From: Halomonas denitrificans | GTDB taxonomy: Bacteria > Pseudomonadota > Gammaproteobacteria > Xanthomonadales > Wenzhouxiangellaceae | NCBI GenBank assembly: GCA_019800895.1 | Contig: JAHVKF010000001.1 | Location: 620,001 to 684,000, forward strand | Direction: 5' to 3' | DNA length: 64,000 bases | Part shown: positions 1 through 5,756 of the stretch, piece by piece | Position numbering within the stretch: position 1 is the first letter of the stretch | Layout: each line of letters opens with the position of its first letter | Notes under the pieces: model-generated | What the model saw: the letters and a program-made list of their open reading frames with translations, nothing else | Told to the model about the DNA's origin: nothing | Databases searched by the model: none | Position numbers and translations under genes: made by a program

Positions 1-213
1 CGTCGATCGGTAGCTGCGCTTGCGGATGCCGAGCAGCGACAGCCAGACGATCAGCACCGCGCCCGCCGCACCCAGCGTGTAGCCCTGCCAGCTCCCGCCG
101 TTGGGCGGCAGGTCGCCGTCCTGGGTCAGGTAGAGCGCGATGGCGGCGACCACCAGCACCACGGCGACCTTGAAGTAGCGTCGATCGCGGTACTGGAGCA
201 GGTTGCGGAACAC
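1..213 (-). CDS. membrane protein, N-terminal part only (runs off the window)
   Basis: The first 71 residues are visible. The start is a GTG at 213, four bases after the stop of the flavin/cNMP/iron-sulfur gene, so the two are probably co-transcribed and translationally coupled. Two hydrophobic segments can be read, roughly residues 14-33 and 46-65, joined by a short polar loop (GDLPPNGGSW) and followed by a basic stretch (RKRSYRST). A membrane partner or anchor for the preceding soluble redox protein is plausible from position alone. The rest lies outside the window, so the family cannot be named. Confidence 0.6.
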   Translation of the reverse strand, partial: MFRNLLQYRDRRYFKVAVVLVVAAIALYLTQDGDLPPNGGSWQGYTLGAAGAVLIVWLSLLGIRKRSYRST

Positions 214-217
214 GGGC

Positions 218-2851
218 TCAGCGCTTCACGATGACGTCGGCGAAGCGGTCCGGCCCGATCCGGATCGCCGCGCCGGTCGGGCAGGCGCGCACGCAGGCCG
301 GGCCGCCGGAGAGCTCCATGCAGCCGTCGCACTTGACCGCCACCTTCGACGATGCGTCCCTGTCGGCGTGGTCGACCGTCGCCGTCGCCGTCGACGCCTC
401 GCCCGGCGCCGGCCCGAGGCCGAGCAGCAGCCAGGCGAGCAGGCCGGTCTTCCCCACCTGGCGCGGGGCCAGGTGGATCGCGTCGTAGGGGCAGTGGGTC
501 TCGCAGTTGCCGCAGCCGATGCACGAGTCGTCGATGAACACCTCGCCGCTGCGCGCGCGGTGGATCGCGTCGACGGGGCAGTCCTTCATGCAGTGCGGGT
601 GCTCGCAGTGGCGACAGGAGATCGGCACCTGGACCGAGGCGAAGCTTGCACCGCTCTTGCGGTCCAGCCGGCTGATGCCGCCGTGGGTCTCGGCACAGGC
701 CTTCTCGCAGTGGTCGCAGCCCACGCACAGGTCCTCGTCGATCAGCATCGCGTTCGTCGCCTCGCCAAGCCCTTCGGACATGAAGAAGGAGACGATGCTG
801 CCGCCTTCGGGCATCGAGCCGAGCAGCGTCTCGACCTTCAGCTGCTGCTGCGTTTCGCGCTGGATGTCCGCGATCCGCTGCGGGTCCTGGTTCAGGAGCG
901 CCAGGAACTCGGGACTGCGCAGCGCGATGGTCTCCGTGCGCACGGCCGCGGTCGCGGTCTCGCGCCGCGTCGGGTCGCCCATCAGCGCCATCTGGCCGAA
1001 GATCCGACCGCTCTGCAGGTGATCGATGGCGATCGTCCTGCCGTCGACCTCGCGGGTCATCGCCACCGTGCCGCTGCGGATCAGGTGCAGCACGTCGCCG
1101 GTGTCCCCTTCGCGATGGATCGTCTCGCCCGCCGCGTATTCTCGCTGCTCGGTCCGGCCGGCGATCCTGCGCAGCACGTCGAGCGGCAGGTCGGGGGCGA
1201 AGGTCTTCTGCAATGCGCGAACGACGAAGACCCAGTCGATGCCCCGCTTGACCTCCTCGTTGGAGTTCATCACCTTGATCATCATCCGGCGCGGGGTCTC
1301 GAGCAGGATGGTCCCCGGGCCGATCTCGGCGAAACCGCTGCGCGGCCGGCCCGAGATCAGGCTCATCTCGCCGAAGAACTGCCCGGCCTTCAGCGTATGG
1401 ACCGGTCCGTCGTTCTCGTACCGGAGCCGGACCTCGCCCTCGGCGATCGTGTAGAAGGTGCTGGTGTAGTCGCCGTCGCGGTAGATCGTCGACCCCTCCT
1501 CGACGATGCGCGTGGACCGCGGGCGCTCCGGCGGCGCGCGGTCGGCGTCGCCGATCGGCTCGCCCTGCGCCTTCAGCTCGCGCAGCGATTCCTTGTGGCG
1601 GTTCATCAGCTGCTTCCAGCGTTCTTCCTCCACCGCTTTCGTCTCGGCTTCGGCCTCGCGCCGGGCGTCCTCGTCGGGCACGCTGGCGATCACCCGGCTC
1701 TCGAGGACCAGCTCGCGGAACTGGAGCGCGTTCATCCGCCGGAACATCGGCAGGCGCTGCTGGTAGAGGTCGAGGATCTCCTCCGGGTCGGCCACGTAGG
1801 GCAGGCCCGCGAACTGGAGCCTGAGGAGCTCGTAGTCGACCGGCTTGACGTCGTTGCCGCGAAGGGTCTCGACCACGTCGAAGCCCTGGTTCATGGCCTG
1901 CTTGATCAGCGGATAGCCGCCGAGCGCGCCGATCACGTACAGGCCCGGCACGTTGCTCTCGTAGCGGCTGCTCAGCTCCGGCAGCGCCGTGGGCCGATCG
2001 TCGGGGAACTTCACCCCGCAGGCCTCGACGAAGCGGCGCGGCGGCACGGACCCCAGCCGCGCGATGATCCGGTGGCAGGCCACGCGCTTCTCGCCTTCCG
2101 GCGTGTCGAGCACGATGGCGCCGGGCTGGCCGGCGGCCTCTGGCGCCTCGACGCGCTTGACGTTGCTCTCGTAGAAGCACGAGAACGCCACGCCGGGATC
2201 GTTGATCGCCTTCAGCACCGCATCGAGGTTGCCCTGCTTGGCGCGGGCGAACTCGGCCCGGCGGTTGACGATGTGGACCGTGTTCTGCTCGGCCAGCCCC
2301 AGCGCGTTCTCGATCGCCGCGTCGCCGGCGCCGACCACGACGATCGTCTCGTCGCGGTAGGCCTCCGGGTCGTCGAGCTGGTACTGCACGATCGACGCGT
2401 CCTCGCCGGGCACGCCGAGCCTGCGCGGATTGCCCTGGGTGCCGATCGCGAGGACCACGGTCTCGGCCTCGACGACCTCGCCGTTGTTCAGCGAGAGGCG
2501 GAAATCCCCCCGCTGTCCCTCGATGCCGGTGACCTCGGCGCCGAAACGCACGTTGACCTGCTTCTCTTCCAGGCCCTTGCGCCACCAGTCCAGGATCTGC
2601 TCGCGCGTCCCGGCCCGGAAGCGCATCGGTGATCTCAGGTCGAGGAAGTTGGGCTCGGCCATCACGTGCTTGCCCTTCTGGTAGCGGTGGATGGTCTTGG
2701 CCGGGCCGTCGAAGGCCTCGAGGAGGATGTGCGTGGGGGCGTGGTCGGGGTTCGTCTCGCGCGCAATGGCGTCGTACTCGGCCGCGCGTGCCGCCGCACT
2801 CAGGCCTCCCGGTCCCGAGCCGACGACTGCGACGTGATACCTCTCGGCCAT
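218..2851 (-). CDS. FAD-dependent reductase fused to two cyclic-nucleotide-binding domains and a 4Fe-4S ferredoxin module
   Basis: 877 residues. An N-terminal FAD fold (GSGPGG at about 11-16) and an NAD(P) fold (VVVGAGDAAIENA near 170) make a thioredoxin-reductase/YpdA-like domain covering about the first 330 residues. Two cNMP/CRP-type beta-roll domains follow (about 445-560 and 570-690; each has the GExFGxM-like element, seen as GQFFGEMSLISGRPRS and GRIFGQMALMGDP). The C-terminus is a DmsB/HybA-like multi-cluster ferredoxin with CVGCDHCEKAC, CRHCEHPHCMKDCP, CIGCGNCETHCP and CDGC...CVRACP. This architecture suggests an electron-transfer enzyme gated by a small ligand or by redox state. The substrate is unknown. 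It sits four bases upstream of a membrane protein gene. Confidence 0.9.
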   Translation of the reverse strand: MAERYHVAVVGSGPGGLSAAARAAEYDAIARETNPDHAPTHILLEAFDGPAKTIHRYQKGKHVMAEPNFLDLRSPMRFRAGTREQILDWWRKGLEEKQVNVRFGAEVTGIEGQRGDFRLSLNNGEVVEAETVVLAIGTQGNPRRLGVPGEDASIVQYQLDDPEAYRDETIVVVGAGDAAIENALGLAEQNTVHIVNRRAEFARAKQGNLDAVLKAINDPGVAFSCFYESNVKRVEAPEAAGQPGAIVLDTPEGEKRVACHRIIARLGSVPPRRFVEACGVKFPDDRPTALPELSSRYESNVPGLYVIGALGGYPLIKQAMNQGFDVVETLRGNDVKPVDYELLRLQFAGLPYVADPEEILDLYQQRLPMFRRMNALQFRELVLESRVIASVPDEDARREAEAETKAVEEERWKQLMNRHKESLRELKAQGEPIGDADRAPPERPRSTRIVEEGSTIYRDGDYTSTFYTIAEGEVRLRYENDGPVHTLKAGQFFGEMSLISGRPRSGFAEIGPGTILLETPRRMMIKVMNSNEEVKRGIDWVFVVRALQKTFAPDLPLDVLRRIAGRTEQREYAAGETIHREGDTGDVLHLIRSGTVAMTREVDGRTIAIDHLQSGRIFGQMALMGDPTRRETATAAVRTETIALRSPEFLALLNQDPQRIADIQRETQQQLKVETLLGSMPEGGSIVSFFMSEGLGEATNAMLIDEDLCVGCDHCEKACAETHGGISRLDRKSGASFASVQVPISCRHCEHPHCMKDCPVDAIHRARSGEVFIDDSCIGCGNCETHCPYDAIHLAPRQVGKTGLLAWLLLGLGPAPGEASTATATVDHADRDASSKVAVKCDGCMELSGGPACVRACPTGAAIRIGPDRFADVIVKR

Positions 2852-3048
2852 GATCGACGTCCTTGCCCCGGACTCGCCGGGCGCAGGTCCATCCCCTTCG
2901 TGCGGCGGCCGATCGGAGCTCCCCGCTCCGCCGATCGCCGGCTCCGACTCCCGCTCCAGAATAAGCGCCCGCCCCGGAATTGCAAGCCGGCGCGCCGGCG
3001 CGGACCGATGGACTAGAATCCCGAAGCGCCCACCGACCCGGACTTGCC

Positions 3049-4341
3049 GTGACCTCCACCATCCCGTCCACGCCGAAGTGGACCCGCGTGCCCGCCGCCG
3101 GAAAGCAGATCAACACCTGCGCGATCACGCCCGACGGCCACCGCGTGGTCTGCGGCACCTGGGTCGAGCGCGGACCGGGCGTCAGCGGGGACTTCCACGT
3201 CTACTGCTACGACGCCTCGGGCGACCTGCTCTACTCGATTCCGGTCTCGGACGAGGCGATCGAGCACGGCGTGTACTGGGTCGCGATCAGCGACGACGGT
3301 TCGACGCTCGCCGCCGGCGGCGAAGTGTCCGACACCGAGGGCTTTCTGCGCGTCTACGGCATTCATCCCGACGCGCCGCCGAACACCATGCGGCTCGTCC
3401 CCCTGCTCGCCACGTCGACGCCGAGCCGCGTCAACGAGGTCAGCCTCGGCGCGGACGGCAGCCGCCTGGTCGCCTGCTACGGCAGCACCGTTGCGCTGTA
3501 CGGCGCCGACGGCAGCTTCGAGTTCCGATTGCTCGACACCTTCGACGCAGGGGCCGAGGCCGACGTCCAGAGCGTGATGATCGACGAGGCCGGCCGGCGA
3601 GCGGTGGCCGCGTCCCGGACCTACGGAGCAAACAATGCCACCACCGGCAAGCTGGTCCGGCTCGAGATCGGCAGCGAAGGATTCACGTCGCACCGCGTCA
3701 CCCCCTTCGACAGCGGCGTGATGCGCGTGGCGATCACCGCCGACGGCAGCGCCTGGGGCGGCAGCCTGCACGACGGCAGCTGCGTGTGCTTCCAGGACAA
3801 CGTAAGCGAGGAACCGGCCTGGCGCTTCAAGCCGACCGGCGACCAGCTGCCGAAGGGCCAGGCGATCTCCCTGGCCTATGGCTTCGCCATCTCGGGCTCG
3901 AGCGCCGGCACCGTGCACGTGGCGGTCGGCGCGAACCTGGACCGCCCCGCCACGCCCGCGGCCGACCCGTCCTACGGCGGTGTCGTGTACTCGCTGGCCT
4001 CGAAGCAGTCCGACGGAACGGTCGCCTCCGACTTCCTGTGGAGTCGACCGACCGCGTTCGGCGTCAACCCGGGCGTGGGCCTCGACGAGGCCGGCCTGCA
4101 CGTCACCGCCACCGACGGCAAACCCGCCGACCACGGCCACGGCGTCCACGAGAGCGCCGGGCACTTCTACCTGTACGACAACGCCACCGGCGACCTCGCC
4201 TGGTCCGTAAAGACCCGGACCATGAACTGGCCCATGGCGATCTCCGCTGACGGCCACGCCATCGTCGGCGGCAGTGACGACGGCAGCCTGTACTACTGGA
4301 CGGCAGACGCCGAGCAGGACGCAGCGACCCCGGCCCCGTGA
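3049..4341 (+). CDS. WD40/PQQ-like beta-propeller protein
   Basis: 430 residues from a GTG start. An in-frame ATG at 2980 would add 23 residues (MQAGAPARTDG...) that do not look conserved, and a TAGAAT box at 3014 sits between the two, so the GTG is preferred. The protein is a series of repeats of about 45-60 residues carrying AITPDG, AISDDGS, AITADGS and AISADGHA motifs, typical of quinoprotein/WD40-like propellers. No signal peptide is visible. It diverges from the reductase fusion and its stop overlaps the GTG start of the diguanylate cyclase, so the two are likely one unit; a sensory or scaffold role is inference. Confidence 0.75.
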   Translation: MTSTIPSTPKWTRVPAAGKQINTCAITPDGHRVVCGTWVERGPGVSGDFHVYCYDASGDLLYSIPVSDEAIEHGVYWVAISDDGSTLAAGGEVSDTEGFLRVYGIHPDAPPNTMRLVPLLATSTPSRVNEVSLGADGSRLVACYGSTVALYGADGSFEFRLLDTFDAGAEADVQSVMIDEAGRRAVAASRTYGANNATTGKLVRLEIGSEGFTSHRVTPFDSGVMRVAITADGSAWGGSLHDGSCVCFQDNVSEEPAWRFKPTGDQLPKGQAISLAYGFAISGSSAGTVHVAVGANLDRPATPAADPSYGGVVYSLASKQSDGTVASDFLWSRPTAFGVNPGVGLDEAGLHVTATDGKPADHGHGVHESAGHFYLYDNATGDLAWSVKTRTMNWPMAISADGHAIVGGSDDGSLYYWTADAEQDAATPAP

Positions 4342-5756
4342 GCGATACCACGCGGTCGCGCTGGCTCGAGAGCGTCGCGCTGTGCGCGGCCTGGCTGGGC
4401 ATCTGGGGGCTGGGCCACCTGGCCGAGTTCACCGCCCACGCCAGCGTCTGGTACCCGCCGTCGGCGCTGACCTTCACCGCCCTGCTGGTCATCGGCCTGC
4501 GCGCCGTCCCGGCCCTGCTCGTGGCCAACGTCGTGGCCACGGTCTGGTCGGTCTGGCTCTACGACATCAGCGCCGGCTGGCAGGACATCATCGGCGGCGG
4601 TCTCGCGAACGCCGTGGTCCATATCGGCTGCTACGGCCTCGGCGCGGCGGCGCTCGGGCGCGTGGCCGACCGCCAGCAGCACAGCCTCCCGCGCATCGTC
4701 ATCGCGTTCCTGGGCATCGCGATCACCGCGTCCATGGCGACCACCGCCGGCGTCATCACCAGCCTGGTCGTGTTCGACCTGCTCGACGCCGACGCCATCG
4801 CCGGGACCTGGCTGGCCTTCTGGATCGGCGACTTCGTCGCGCTCGTCGTGCTCGGCCCGCTCTGCGGCGCCCTGCTGATCAAGCTGGTCCGCGCACCGGC
4901 GTTCTGGATCGAGCCGATGGACGGCGTGCGCAAGGACGGCCTGACCGGCTCCTTCGCCTTCAAGCTCTCGGTCAGCGCGCTCGTGGTCGCCGCGGCCATG
5001 CTCGCCGCCCAGCGCCTCGGCACGGTGGAGAGCGCGTTCCTGATCTTCTTCCTGCTGATCCCCCAGATGTGGCTGACCCACTCGGAATCGCCCCTGCGAA
5101 CGGCGGCGAGCCTGGGCGTCGTCAGCTTCCTGATCGTCGTCCTGCTCGGCGCCCTGGGCCTGGCGGAGTTCGTGTTCGTGTACCAGTTCGCGATCGCGGT
5201 GATCGCGACGACCGCGTGGTTCGGCCTGGCCCTGCCGCTGCTGGTCTCCGACAACCAGCAGCTGCGCGAACGGCTGATGTTCGACGGCCTGACCGGCGCC
5301 ACCACGCGCGACCTGTTGATCTTCCAGGCCGGCCGCGAGCTCGCCCTGGCCCGGCGCGGCACCCCCAGCTGCCTGGCCGTGGTCGACCTGGACCGGTTCA
5401 AGCGCATCAACGACGAGCACGGCCACCCCGCCGGCGACCGCGCCCTGGTCGAGCTGGCCGACCTCATGCGCCGCGAAACGCGCGGCACCGACGTCGTGGC
5501 CCGCTACGGCGGCGACGAGTTCGTGCTGCTGCTGCCCGACACCACGCTAGCCGAAGCACGCGGCAGGCTGAATGCGCTGTGCGACGCCGTCCGGTCGGAA
5601 CTGACTGTTGCGGGCGAGGCCGTCACCGTCAGCATCGGGCTGACCGAGGCGGTGCCGGACGACGACTTCGACCGCTGGTTCGAGCGCGCCGACTCGGCCC
5701 TGCTCGAGGCCAAGCGCCGGGGGCGAGATCGGGTGGAGGTTCGGGTTCCCGGCTGA
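4338..5756 (+). CDS. MASE1-GGDEF diguanylate cyclase
   Basis: 472 residues, GTG start overlapping the previous stop by four bases. The first 300 residues are strongly hydrophobic with about eight to nine membrane segments and match the MASE1 sensor layout (WYPPSALTFTALLVIGLR near the start). The C-terminal 160 residues form a GGDEF domain: GGDEF active site at 391-395, and an RxxD inhibitory site (RGTD) five residues before it. It should therefore make cyclic di-GMP in response to a membrane-perceived signal and be product-inhibited. No EAL domain is present. Confidence 0.9.
   Translation: MSDTTRSRWLESVALCAAWLGIWGLGHLAEFTAHASVWYPPSALTFTALLVIGLRAVPALLVANVVATVWSVWLYDISAGWQDIIGGGLANAVVHIGCYGLGAAALGRVADRQQHSLPRIVIAFLGIAITASMATTAGVITSLVVFDLLDADAIAGTWLAFWIGDFVALVVLGPLCGALLIKLVRAPAFWIEPMDGVRKDGLTGSFAFKLSVSALVVAAAMLAAQRLGTVESAFLIFFLLIPQMWLTHSESPLRTAASLGVVSFLIVVLLGALGLAEFVFVYQFAIAVIATTAWFGLALPLLVSDNQQLRERLMFDGLTGATTRDLLIFQAGRELALARRGTPSCLAVVDLDRFKRINDEHGHPAGDRALVELADLMRRETRGTDVVARYGGDEFVLLLPDTTLAEARGRLNALCDAVRSELTVAGEAVTVSIGLTEAVPDDDFDRWFERADSALLEAKRRGRDRVEVRVPG

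Follow-up and report, generated by a model that had tools for sequence, protein, structure and literature searches.

Introduction

Control of the known extracellular electron conduits is generally ascribed to gene expression and quinone supply. The described systems closest to the locus that we present here are PCC3 and PCC4. Their inner-membrane protein is given a signature of WX3HX13H twice plus SGXXG, both systems are proposed for Fe(II) oxidisers, and electron exchange of PCC4 with the outside is proposed, not demonstrated (He et al. 2017, PMC5566968). Oceanospirillum beijerinckii is noted as having its Fe-S and membrane-protein genes annotated as joined (He et al., PMC5566968).

A further point of reference is given by the NADPH oxidases and ferric reductases. 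In these, cytosolic NADPH supplies electrons that leave the cell by way of flavin and a pair of b hemes (HX13H twice). The likeness to the reductase and membrane protein described below is one of function, and the system studied here would deliver its electrons to multiheme cytochromes.

We describe a locus of Halomonas denitrificans in which a reductase, two cNMP-binding (CNB) domains and a polyferredoxin form one protein. That this protein belongs to an assembly of a head plus a conduit is highly probable. We further think it rather probable that electrons enter a PCC4-like trans-envelope conduit through the fusion, which would be its ligand-regulated head on the cytoplasmic side.

Domain organisation of the fusion protein

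The fusion is encoded by an uninterrupted 877-aa ORF with an ATG start. It lies in the window, i.e. the whole 64-kb stretch of DNA that was analysed, where an Rfam search returned zero matches. Pfam and NCBIfam assign a pyridine-nucleotide-disulphide-oxidoreductase domain (Pyr_redox_2/3) to aa 5-323 and 4Fe-4S/DmsB-type and Fer4 domains to aa 702-861; Pfam also finds two cNMP_binding stretches (E = 3.5e-33). The features, in window coordinates, are:

218-2851, minus strand: fusion gene, NADPH/FAD reductase, CNB1, CNB2 and polyferredoxin, 877 aa (ORF and 108 aligned homologues)
1883-2839, minus strand: TrxR-type FAD/NADP domain, aa 5-323 (alignment and Foldseek)
1517-1882, minus strand: linker, aa 324-445 (alignment)
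1208-1510, minus strand: CNB1, aa 448-548, with its cassette at aa 492-504 (window 1340-1378); E495 and R504 in 108/108
836-1174, minus strand: CNB2, aa 560-672, with its cassette at aa 617-632 (window 956-1003); Q620 and R629 (alignment)
269-748, minus strand: DmsB/HycB-type polyferredoxin, aa 702-861, 16 Cys (Pfam/NCBIfam, profile relatives and alignment)
1-213, minus strand: 294-aa inner-membrane protein, GTG at 213-211, running past the left end of the window (contig C1 619329-620213)

The complete architecture is kept in orthologues, which rules out an accident of frame or assembly. The original prediction, that a reductase, two CRP-like domains and a DmsB-like ferredoxin are joined in one chain, is therefore borne out by the ORF, the Pfam matches and the orthologues. 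Its claim of a membrane-protein gene four bases downstream is also exact: the fusion gene ends with a TGA at 220-218, and the next one starts with the GTG at 213-211.

Our alignment comprises 108 non-identical homologues, the most distant of which share 42% identity with the window protein. Across this set the glycines of the FAD and NADP motifs and all 16 cysteines of the ferredoxin part are essentially invariant. Most homologues lack an insert in the linker, which in the clade of the window protein is long. The AlphaFold model has a mean pLDDT of 75, mostly below 50 at aa 750-850 in the ferredoxin part, and so resolves neither the packing of the domains nor the geometry of any gating.

The reductase carries the FAD motif GxGPxG (G11, G13, G16), E45, a GAGDAA motif (G174, G176) and a basic stretch, NRR..F.R.K, which in the NADP fold follows beta strand 2. 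We take this stretch to be the basic pattern typical of NADPH-type TrxR enzymes, and from this one motif we would class the domain as NADPH-type, using NADP(H). The best Foldseek matches of the model are YpdA and TrxR-like ferredoxin-NADP reductases. The described enzymes of this kind, i.e. the TrxR-type ferredoxin/flavodoxin-NADP reductases (3ab1, 6gas, 5ygq) and YpdA (7a7b), share with the domain their fold, the FAD and NADP motifs and the missing CxxC; they stand alone, whereas here the reductase is joined to CNBs and a polyferredoxin. With an FAD GxGxxG and an NADP GxGxxA/G in a TrxR fold that lacks CxxC, the N-terminal domain has the features of a TrxR-type ferredoxin-NADP reductase, and transfer between NADPH and ferredoxin is predicted.

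Could the protein instead be a soluble disulfide reductase, acting on thioredoxin or bacillithiol, that bears regulatory domains and has no connection to the adjacent cytochromes? The best NCBIfam and PDB matches of the N-terminal domain, YpdA and TrxR, point that way. However, CxxC is found at the TrxR position in 0/108 homologues, so the fusion is not a disulfide reductase and we rejected a thioredoxin/disulfide reductase identity. The covalently attached four-cluster ferredoxin, the near-universal operon with a membrane protein and a decaheme, and the natural occurrence of head/membrane-protein fusions likewise count against this reading, to which we give almost no credence.

The polyferredoxin has cysteines at positions 709, 712, 715, 719, 746, 749, 754, 758, 777, 780, 783, 787, 841, 844, 853 and 857, which form four ferredoxin motifs as in the DmsB/HycB type and would be enough for four [4Fe-4S] clusters. 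It further has a hydrophobic loop at about aa 801-817 and a PF13247 match at aa 742-793. It resembles HycB3/HycB4 and subunit 2 of formate hydrogenlyase. AegA-type fused ferredoxin/FAD reductases, a weak NCBIfam match, also unite ferredoxin clusters with an FAD/NAD(P) domain in a single chain. AegA, in contrast, has no CNB, and the fusion scores 44 bits against an AegA cut-off of 1003; the AegA-type domain order is the reverse of that found here.

Membrane partner and operon

The membrane protein has five helices. W-x3-H-x13-H occurs twice in 93/93 homologues, that of the host included, and SGxxG in 92/93. Four invariant histidines suggest that it binds two b hemes. Its twofold HX13H recalls ferric reductases and NOX, and PF01292 gives a sub-threshold match only. 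For its model (pLDDT 92) a search of the PDB found no solved fold relative at E <= 0.001.

The mapping across genomes that the original prediction called for places this gene next to the fusion gene, on the same strand, in 93 loci, where a median of 2 bases separates them. In one locus (L142) the two form a single 1118-aa ORF.

Most of the operon lies to the left of the window, and its order was read from the adjacent DNA of contig C1, minus strand. The fusion and the membrane protein are followed, in this order, by:

C1 617542-619323 (L005:13542-15323), minus strand: cytochrome with an FHA domain, one TM helix and 10 CxxCH
C1, ending at 615467, minus strand: two-domain GlcG/HbpS-like protein
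C1 613420-615390, minus strand: porin-like protein, 656 aa
C1 609527-613498 (L005:5527-9498), minus strand: giant 10-heme protein with LVIVD repeats
C1 608215-609594, minus strand: tetraheme cytochrome c554-like protein

A divergent cytochrome c biogenesis gene (CcmH/CycH-type) lies at the far end of the operon. The order is kept in most loci with enough DNA, where gene boundaries come from a simple ORF picker and not from curated annotation. The most stable part is a core of three genes, for the fusion, the membrane protein and the FHA-decaheme; in alphaproteobacteria the outer parts may be nearby or elsewhere.

The FHA-decaheme, with its FHA domain, TM helix and ten hemes in a single chain, is conserved alongside the fusion, and its FHA domain suggests control by phosphoproteins from the cytoplasmic side. 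A 'Forkhead-associated protein' with 10 hemes has been noted in 27 Gallionellaceae genomes, in a single table row (PMC10734462). The host genome also encodes, directly after the operon, a protein with two FHA domains (L005:2879-4135, minus strand) and a membrane protein (L005:1767-2702, minus strand).

The porin-like protein is conserved in place and was judged a beta-barrel from its sequence only; profile searches of Pfam and the PDB gave no match, nor did BLAST against the PCC4 porin. The giant decaheme keeps 63-78% identity across 12 distant carriers, with non-heme motifs that are invariant or nearly so (YHGHGWNFRA, NRGPGTG, YANDR and HMHQPNMF). A profile search found no relative of it in the PDB. 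It looks like an enzyme or a rigid complex more than a mere wire.

Relationship to PCC4 and PCC3

The host cluster shares much with PCC4: 10-heme and 4-heme cytochromes, the motifs of the membrane protein (93/93 and 92/93 homologues, see above) and, as in PCC4 subgroup II, a PF13247 Fe-S gene that immediately precedes the one for the membrane protein, here with a 4-base gap. Its porin-like protein would correspond to the PCC4 beta-barrel. PCC4 is however defined by 4-, 5- and 10-heme cytochromes. The host cluster has 10, 10 and 4 hemes and no 5-heme protein, which is why we treat it as a PCC4-like variant rather than as PCC4 itself. The 5-heme protein is replaced by the giant 10-heme-LVIVD and GlcG-like proteins, the decaheme bears an FHA domain, no homology was detected between the porin-like protein and the PCC4 porin, and the reductase is of TrxR type and fused, whereas PCC4 has a separate NqrF-like reductase gene.

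Searching with the membrane protein also recovered clusters of PCC4 composition in alphaproteobacteria. These comprise a 5-heme protein, a beta-barrel-like protein, an NqrF-type FAD/NAD/2Fe-2S reductase, a 4-heme protein, an Fe-S protein of about 570 aa, the membrane protein and a 10-heme protein; the set is complete in two loci (L151 and L156) and mostly present in three others (L153, L155 and L157). The Fe-S protein of these clusters is a CNB-CNB-16-Cys ferredoxin, with 26-27% identity to the C-terminal half of the fusion and with both Glu and Arg in the first pocket in 6/6 proteins examined. CNB domains find no mention in the accessible part of the PCC4 paper (PMC5566968). In two hybrid loci (L158 and L160) the full fusion occurs together with 4- and 5-heme proteins like those of PCC4, so that these loci do show the heme counts of 4, 5 and 10. 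By their sequences, we read these clusters as one CNB-ferredoxin-membrane-decaheme core that two unrelated flavin-dependent NAD(P)H reductases would serve.

PCC3 shares the His and SGXXG motifs of the membrane protein. It differs from the host cluster in its cytochromes, whose low-complexity repeats carry about 10-60 hemes, and is not described as having a CNB head. One locus in our data (L150) is PCC3-like, with 13 and 21 hemes and a small Fe-S/FAD protein.

Nucleotide pockets and candidate ligands

The tandem CNBs align with the regulatory domains of PKG and PKA. These likewise have two tandem CNBs with a canonical cassette, but govern a kinase, whereas the CNBs described here sit in a redox chain. 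The CNB1 cassette of the window protein, FFGEMSLISGRPRS, follows the pattern FFGExxLxSGRxR, with Glu495 and Arg504 at the canonical spacing of nine. Across its 13 residues the mean top-residue frequency is 0.89, compared with 0.60 for all of CNB1.

Loss of the Glu/Arg pair had been named as grounds for rejecting the original prediction. Pocket 1 shows no such loss and keeps both residues in 108/108 homologues; pocket 2 keeps them in only 78/108 (Glu in 79/108, Arg, i.e. R629, in 107/108). The Glu of CNB2 is lost in 29/108, and in the clade of the window protein it is replaced by Gln (Q620), so that the window CNB2 departs from the canonical cassette. As far as an alignment can tell, the conservation of CNB1 shows selection on ligand-contact residues, whichever the ligand. 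We consider it likely that CNB1 binds some nucleotide, and we lean slightly towards the view that this binding gates electron flow.

Another reading is that the CNBs are purely structural, serving in dimerisation or docking with no ligand. The lost Glu of CNB2, in the window protein as elsewhere, the degenerate CNB2 of the PCC4-type proteins and the failure to find a known cyclase in the host genome would fit. Yet Glu and Arg of CNB1 persist in every homologue and also in 6 PCC4-type proteins that have no fused reductase, and a structural role leaves selection on exactly the ligand-contact residues unexplained. We regard this as improbable.

If CNB1 does bind a nucleotide, which one is it? The predicted control by cAMP or cGMP fares differently in the host and in its relatives. 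Searches with PF00211, PF01295 and PF01928 found no cyclase in the host genome (99.98% complete), so that none of classes I, III and IV can be recognised there, and E. coli-type CyaA is found in 0/200 genomes of the order sample. Most other carriers in the order do have class III cyclases (28/33, against 73/167 of the other genomes; Fisher p ~1.5e-5, with kinship ignored). Furthermore, in 8/13 phylum-sample loci (L137, L139, L140, L141, L146, L147, L148 and L149) a calcineurin-like phosphoesterase gene follows the core on the same strand, mostly directly behind the three core genes. Its product is closest to SpdA/CpdA and Rv0805, with NCBIfam scores below the equivalog cut-offs, and it is often the neighbour in alphaproteobacteria. 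Among the relatives cAMP/cGMP is thus a candidate ligand; in H. denitrificans itself it is doubtful.

In this lineage at least, the ligand of the CNBs may instead be c-di-GMP or some other nucleotide. The host genome, in which three cAMP-type cyclase classes were not found, has 35 GGDEF matches, and one of them lies about 1.5 kb upstream of the fusion gene:

4338-5756, plus strand: MASE1-GGDEF protein, divergent from the fusion

This neighbour is a possible local source of c-di-GMP; its membership of the operon is only conjectural. The CRP homologue of the host also has a Clp-like cassette, GEMGLFMRPGKREV, and the ligand of Clp in Xanthomonas is c-di-GMP rather than cAMP (PMC5449483). Against c-di-GMP stand the canonical CNB1, the class III cyclases of the order carriers (kinship again ignored) and the alphaproteobacterial neighbour, which is a CpdA/Rv0805-like phosphodiesterase and not an EAL or HD-GYP protein. 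We judge it somewhat unlikely. The ligand may differ between lineages, or may be absent in H. denitrificans. Between the operon and the MASE1-GGDEF gene lies a gene for a beta-propeller-like (weak WD40) protein (window 2980-4341, plus strand).

Proposed electron path and its direction

From the domains, motifs, operon, conservation and natural head/membrane-protein fusion we infer the following path. NADPH would reduce the FAD of the TrxR-type ferredoxin-NADP reductase domain, from which electrons would pass to the four-cluster polyferredoxin of the same chain, on to the two putative b hemes of the adjacent five-helix membrane protein and then to the membrane-anchored decaheme with its cytoplasmic FHA domain. 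The decaheme would hand them to a porin-type outer-membrane assembly (porin, giant decaheme-LVIVD, GlcG/HbpS-like protein and tetraheme c554) and so to an acceptor outside. The CNBs lie between flavin and ferredoxin; most likely, a nucleotide in CNB1 (and in CNB2 where its Glu is kept) would shift the ferredoxin relative to the flavin and thereby open or close the path.

The original suggestion that the reductase feeds a membrane complex is supported, as either feeding or drawing, by the operon, the di-heme-b-type membrane protein, the natural fusion and the downstream multiheme and porin-like proteins. We favour export. For electrons from NADPH, the way out via flavin, Fe-S clusters and two b hemes would be downhill and would follow the membrane potential, as it does in NADPH oxidases.

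Its serious rival is the same conduit run in reverse, with external donors (Fe(II), Mn(II), electrodes or partner cells) supplying the electrons that reduce NADP+ via ferredoxin and flavin. TrxR-type ferredoxin-NADP reductases work in both directions, and one carrier, a Haliea MAG (L059), has an isolate name that mentions a biocathode. The proposal of PCC3 and PCC4 for Fe(II) oxidisers (PMC5566968) agrees with uptake as well. However, strong RuBisCO matches occur in only 9/33 order carriers, and none in the host genome, so that the conduit does not in general serve to fix CO2 through the Calvin cycle. Inward flow to NADP+ would moreover be uphill in potential and against the membrane potential, and an NADPH-type reductase with two HX13H motifs recalls the outward chemistry of NOX and ferric reductases. 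We therefore hold uptake to be unlikely. A gene for an NADP-specific glutamate dehydrogenase adjoins the operon in 14 distinct gamma- and alphaproteobacterial loci (L041, L043, L044, L056, L137, L147 and others), which fits NADP(H) chemistry and is silent on direction.

With export as the preferred direction, a broader and more tentative proposal is that of a widespread conduit under allosteric control, in which CNB1 by binding a nucleotide, and probably the FHA domain by binding a phosphoprotein, gate NADPH-driven flow, and in which PCC4 shares this gate. If true, this would be ligand-gated extracellular electron transfer, and hundreds of Proteobacteria would have a post-translational switch for the conduit. 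PCC4, of which little has been described, would gain a donor and a regulator, with E495 and R504 as residues to test. A literature search for links between FHA and decahemes, or CNBs and conduits, found none beyond the table row in PMC10734462, and 'cyclic nucleotide-binding' and 'extracellular electron transfer' co-occurred in a single, unrelated paper among those searched. The signalling layer appears to be undescribed so far.

Taxonomic distribution

The fusion has at least 563 confirmed relatives, in hundreds of Gamma-, Alpha- and Betaproteobacteria. Carriers make up 33/200 genomes of the order and 15/398 of the phylum. Within the host's genus it was found only in the host's own genome out of six sampled, hence its distribution is patchy. 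Its nearest named relative among the matches listed is from a Wenzhouxiangella MAG (73% identity), which probably places the host close to Wenzhouxiangellaceae, and cultured marine carriers include Marinobacter salexigens, Pseudohalioglobus lutimaris, Haliea and Zhongshania. The operon also turns up in public MAG records labelled Klebsiella pneumoniae and Bordetella parapertussis (L122, L129 and L131), labels that are probably wrong.
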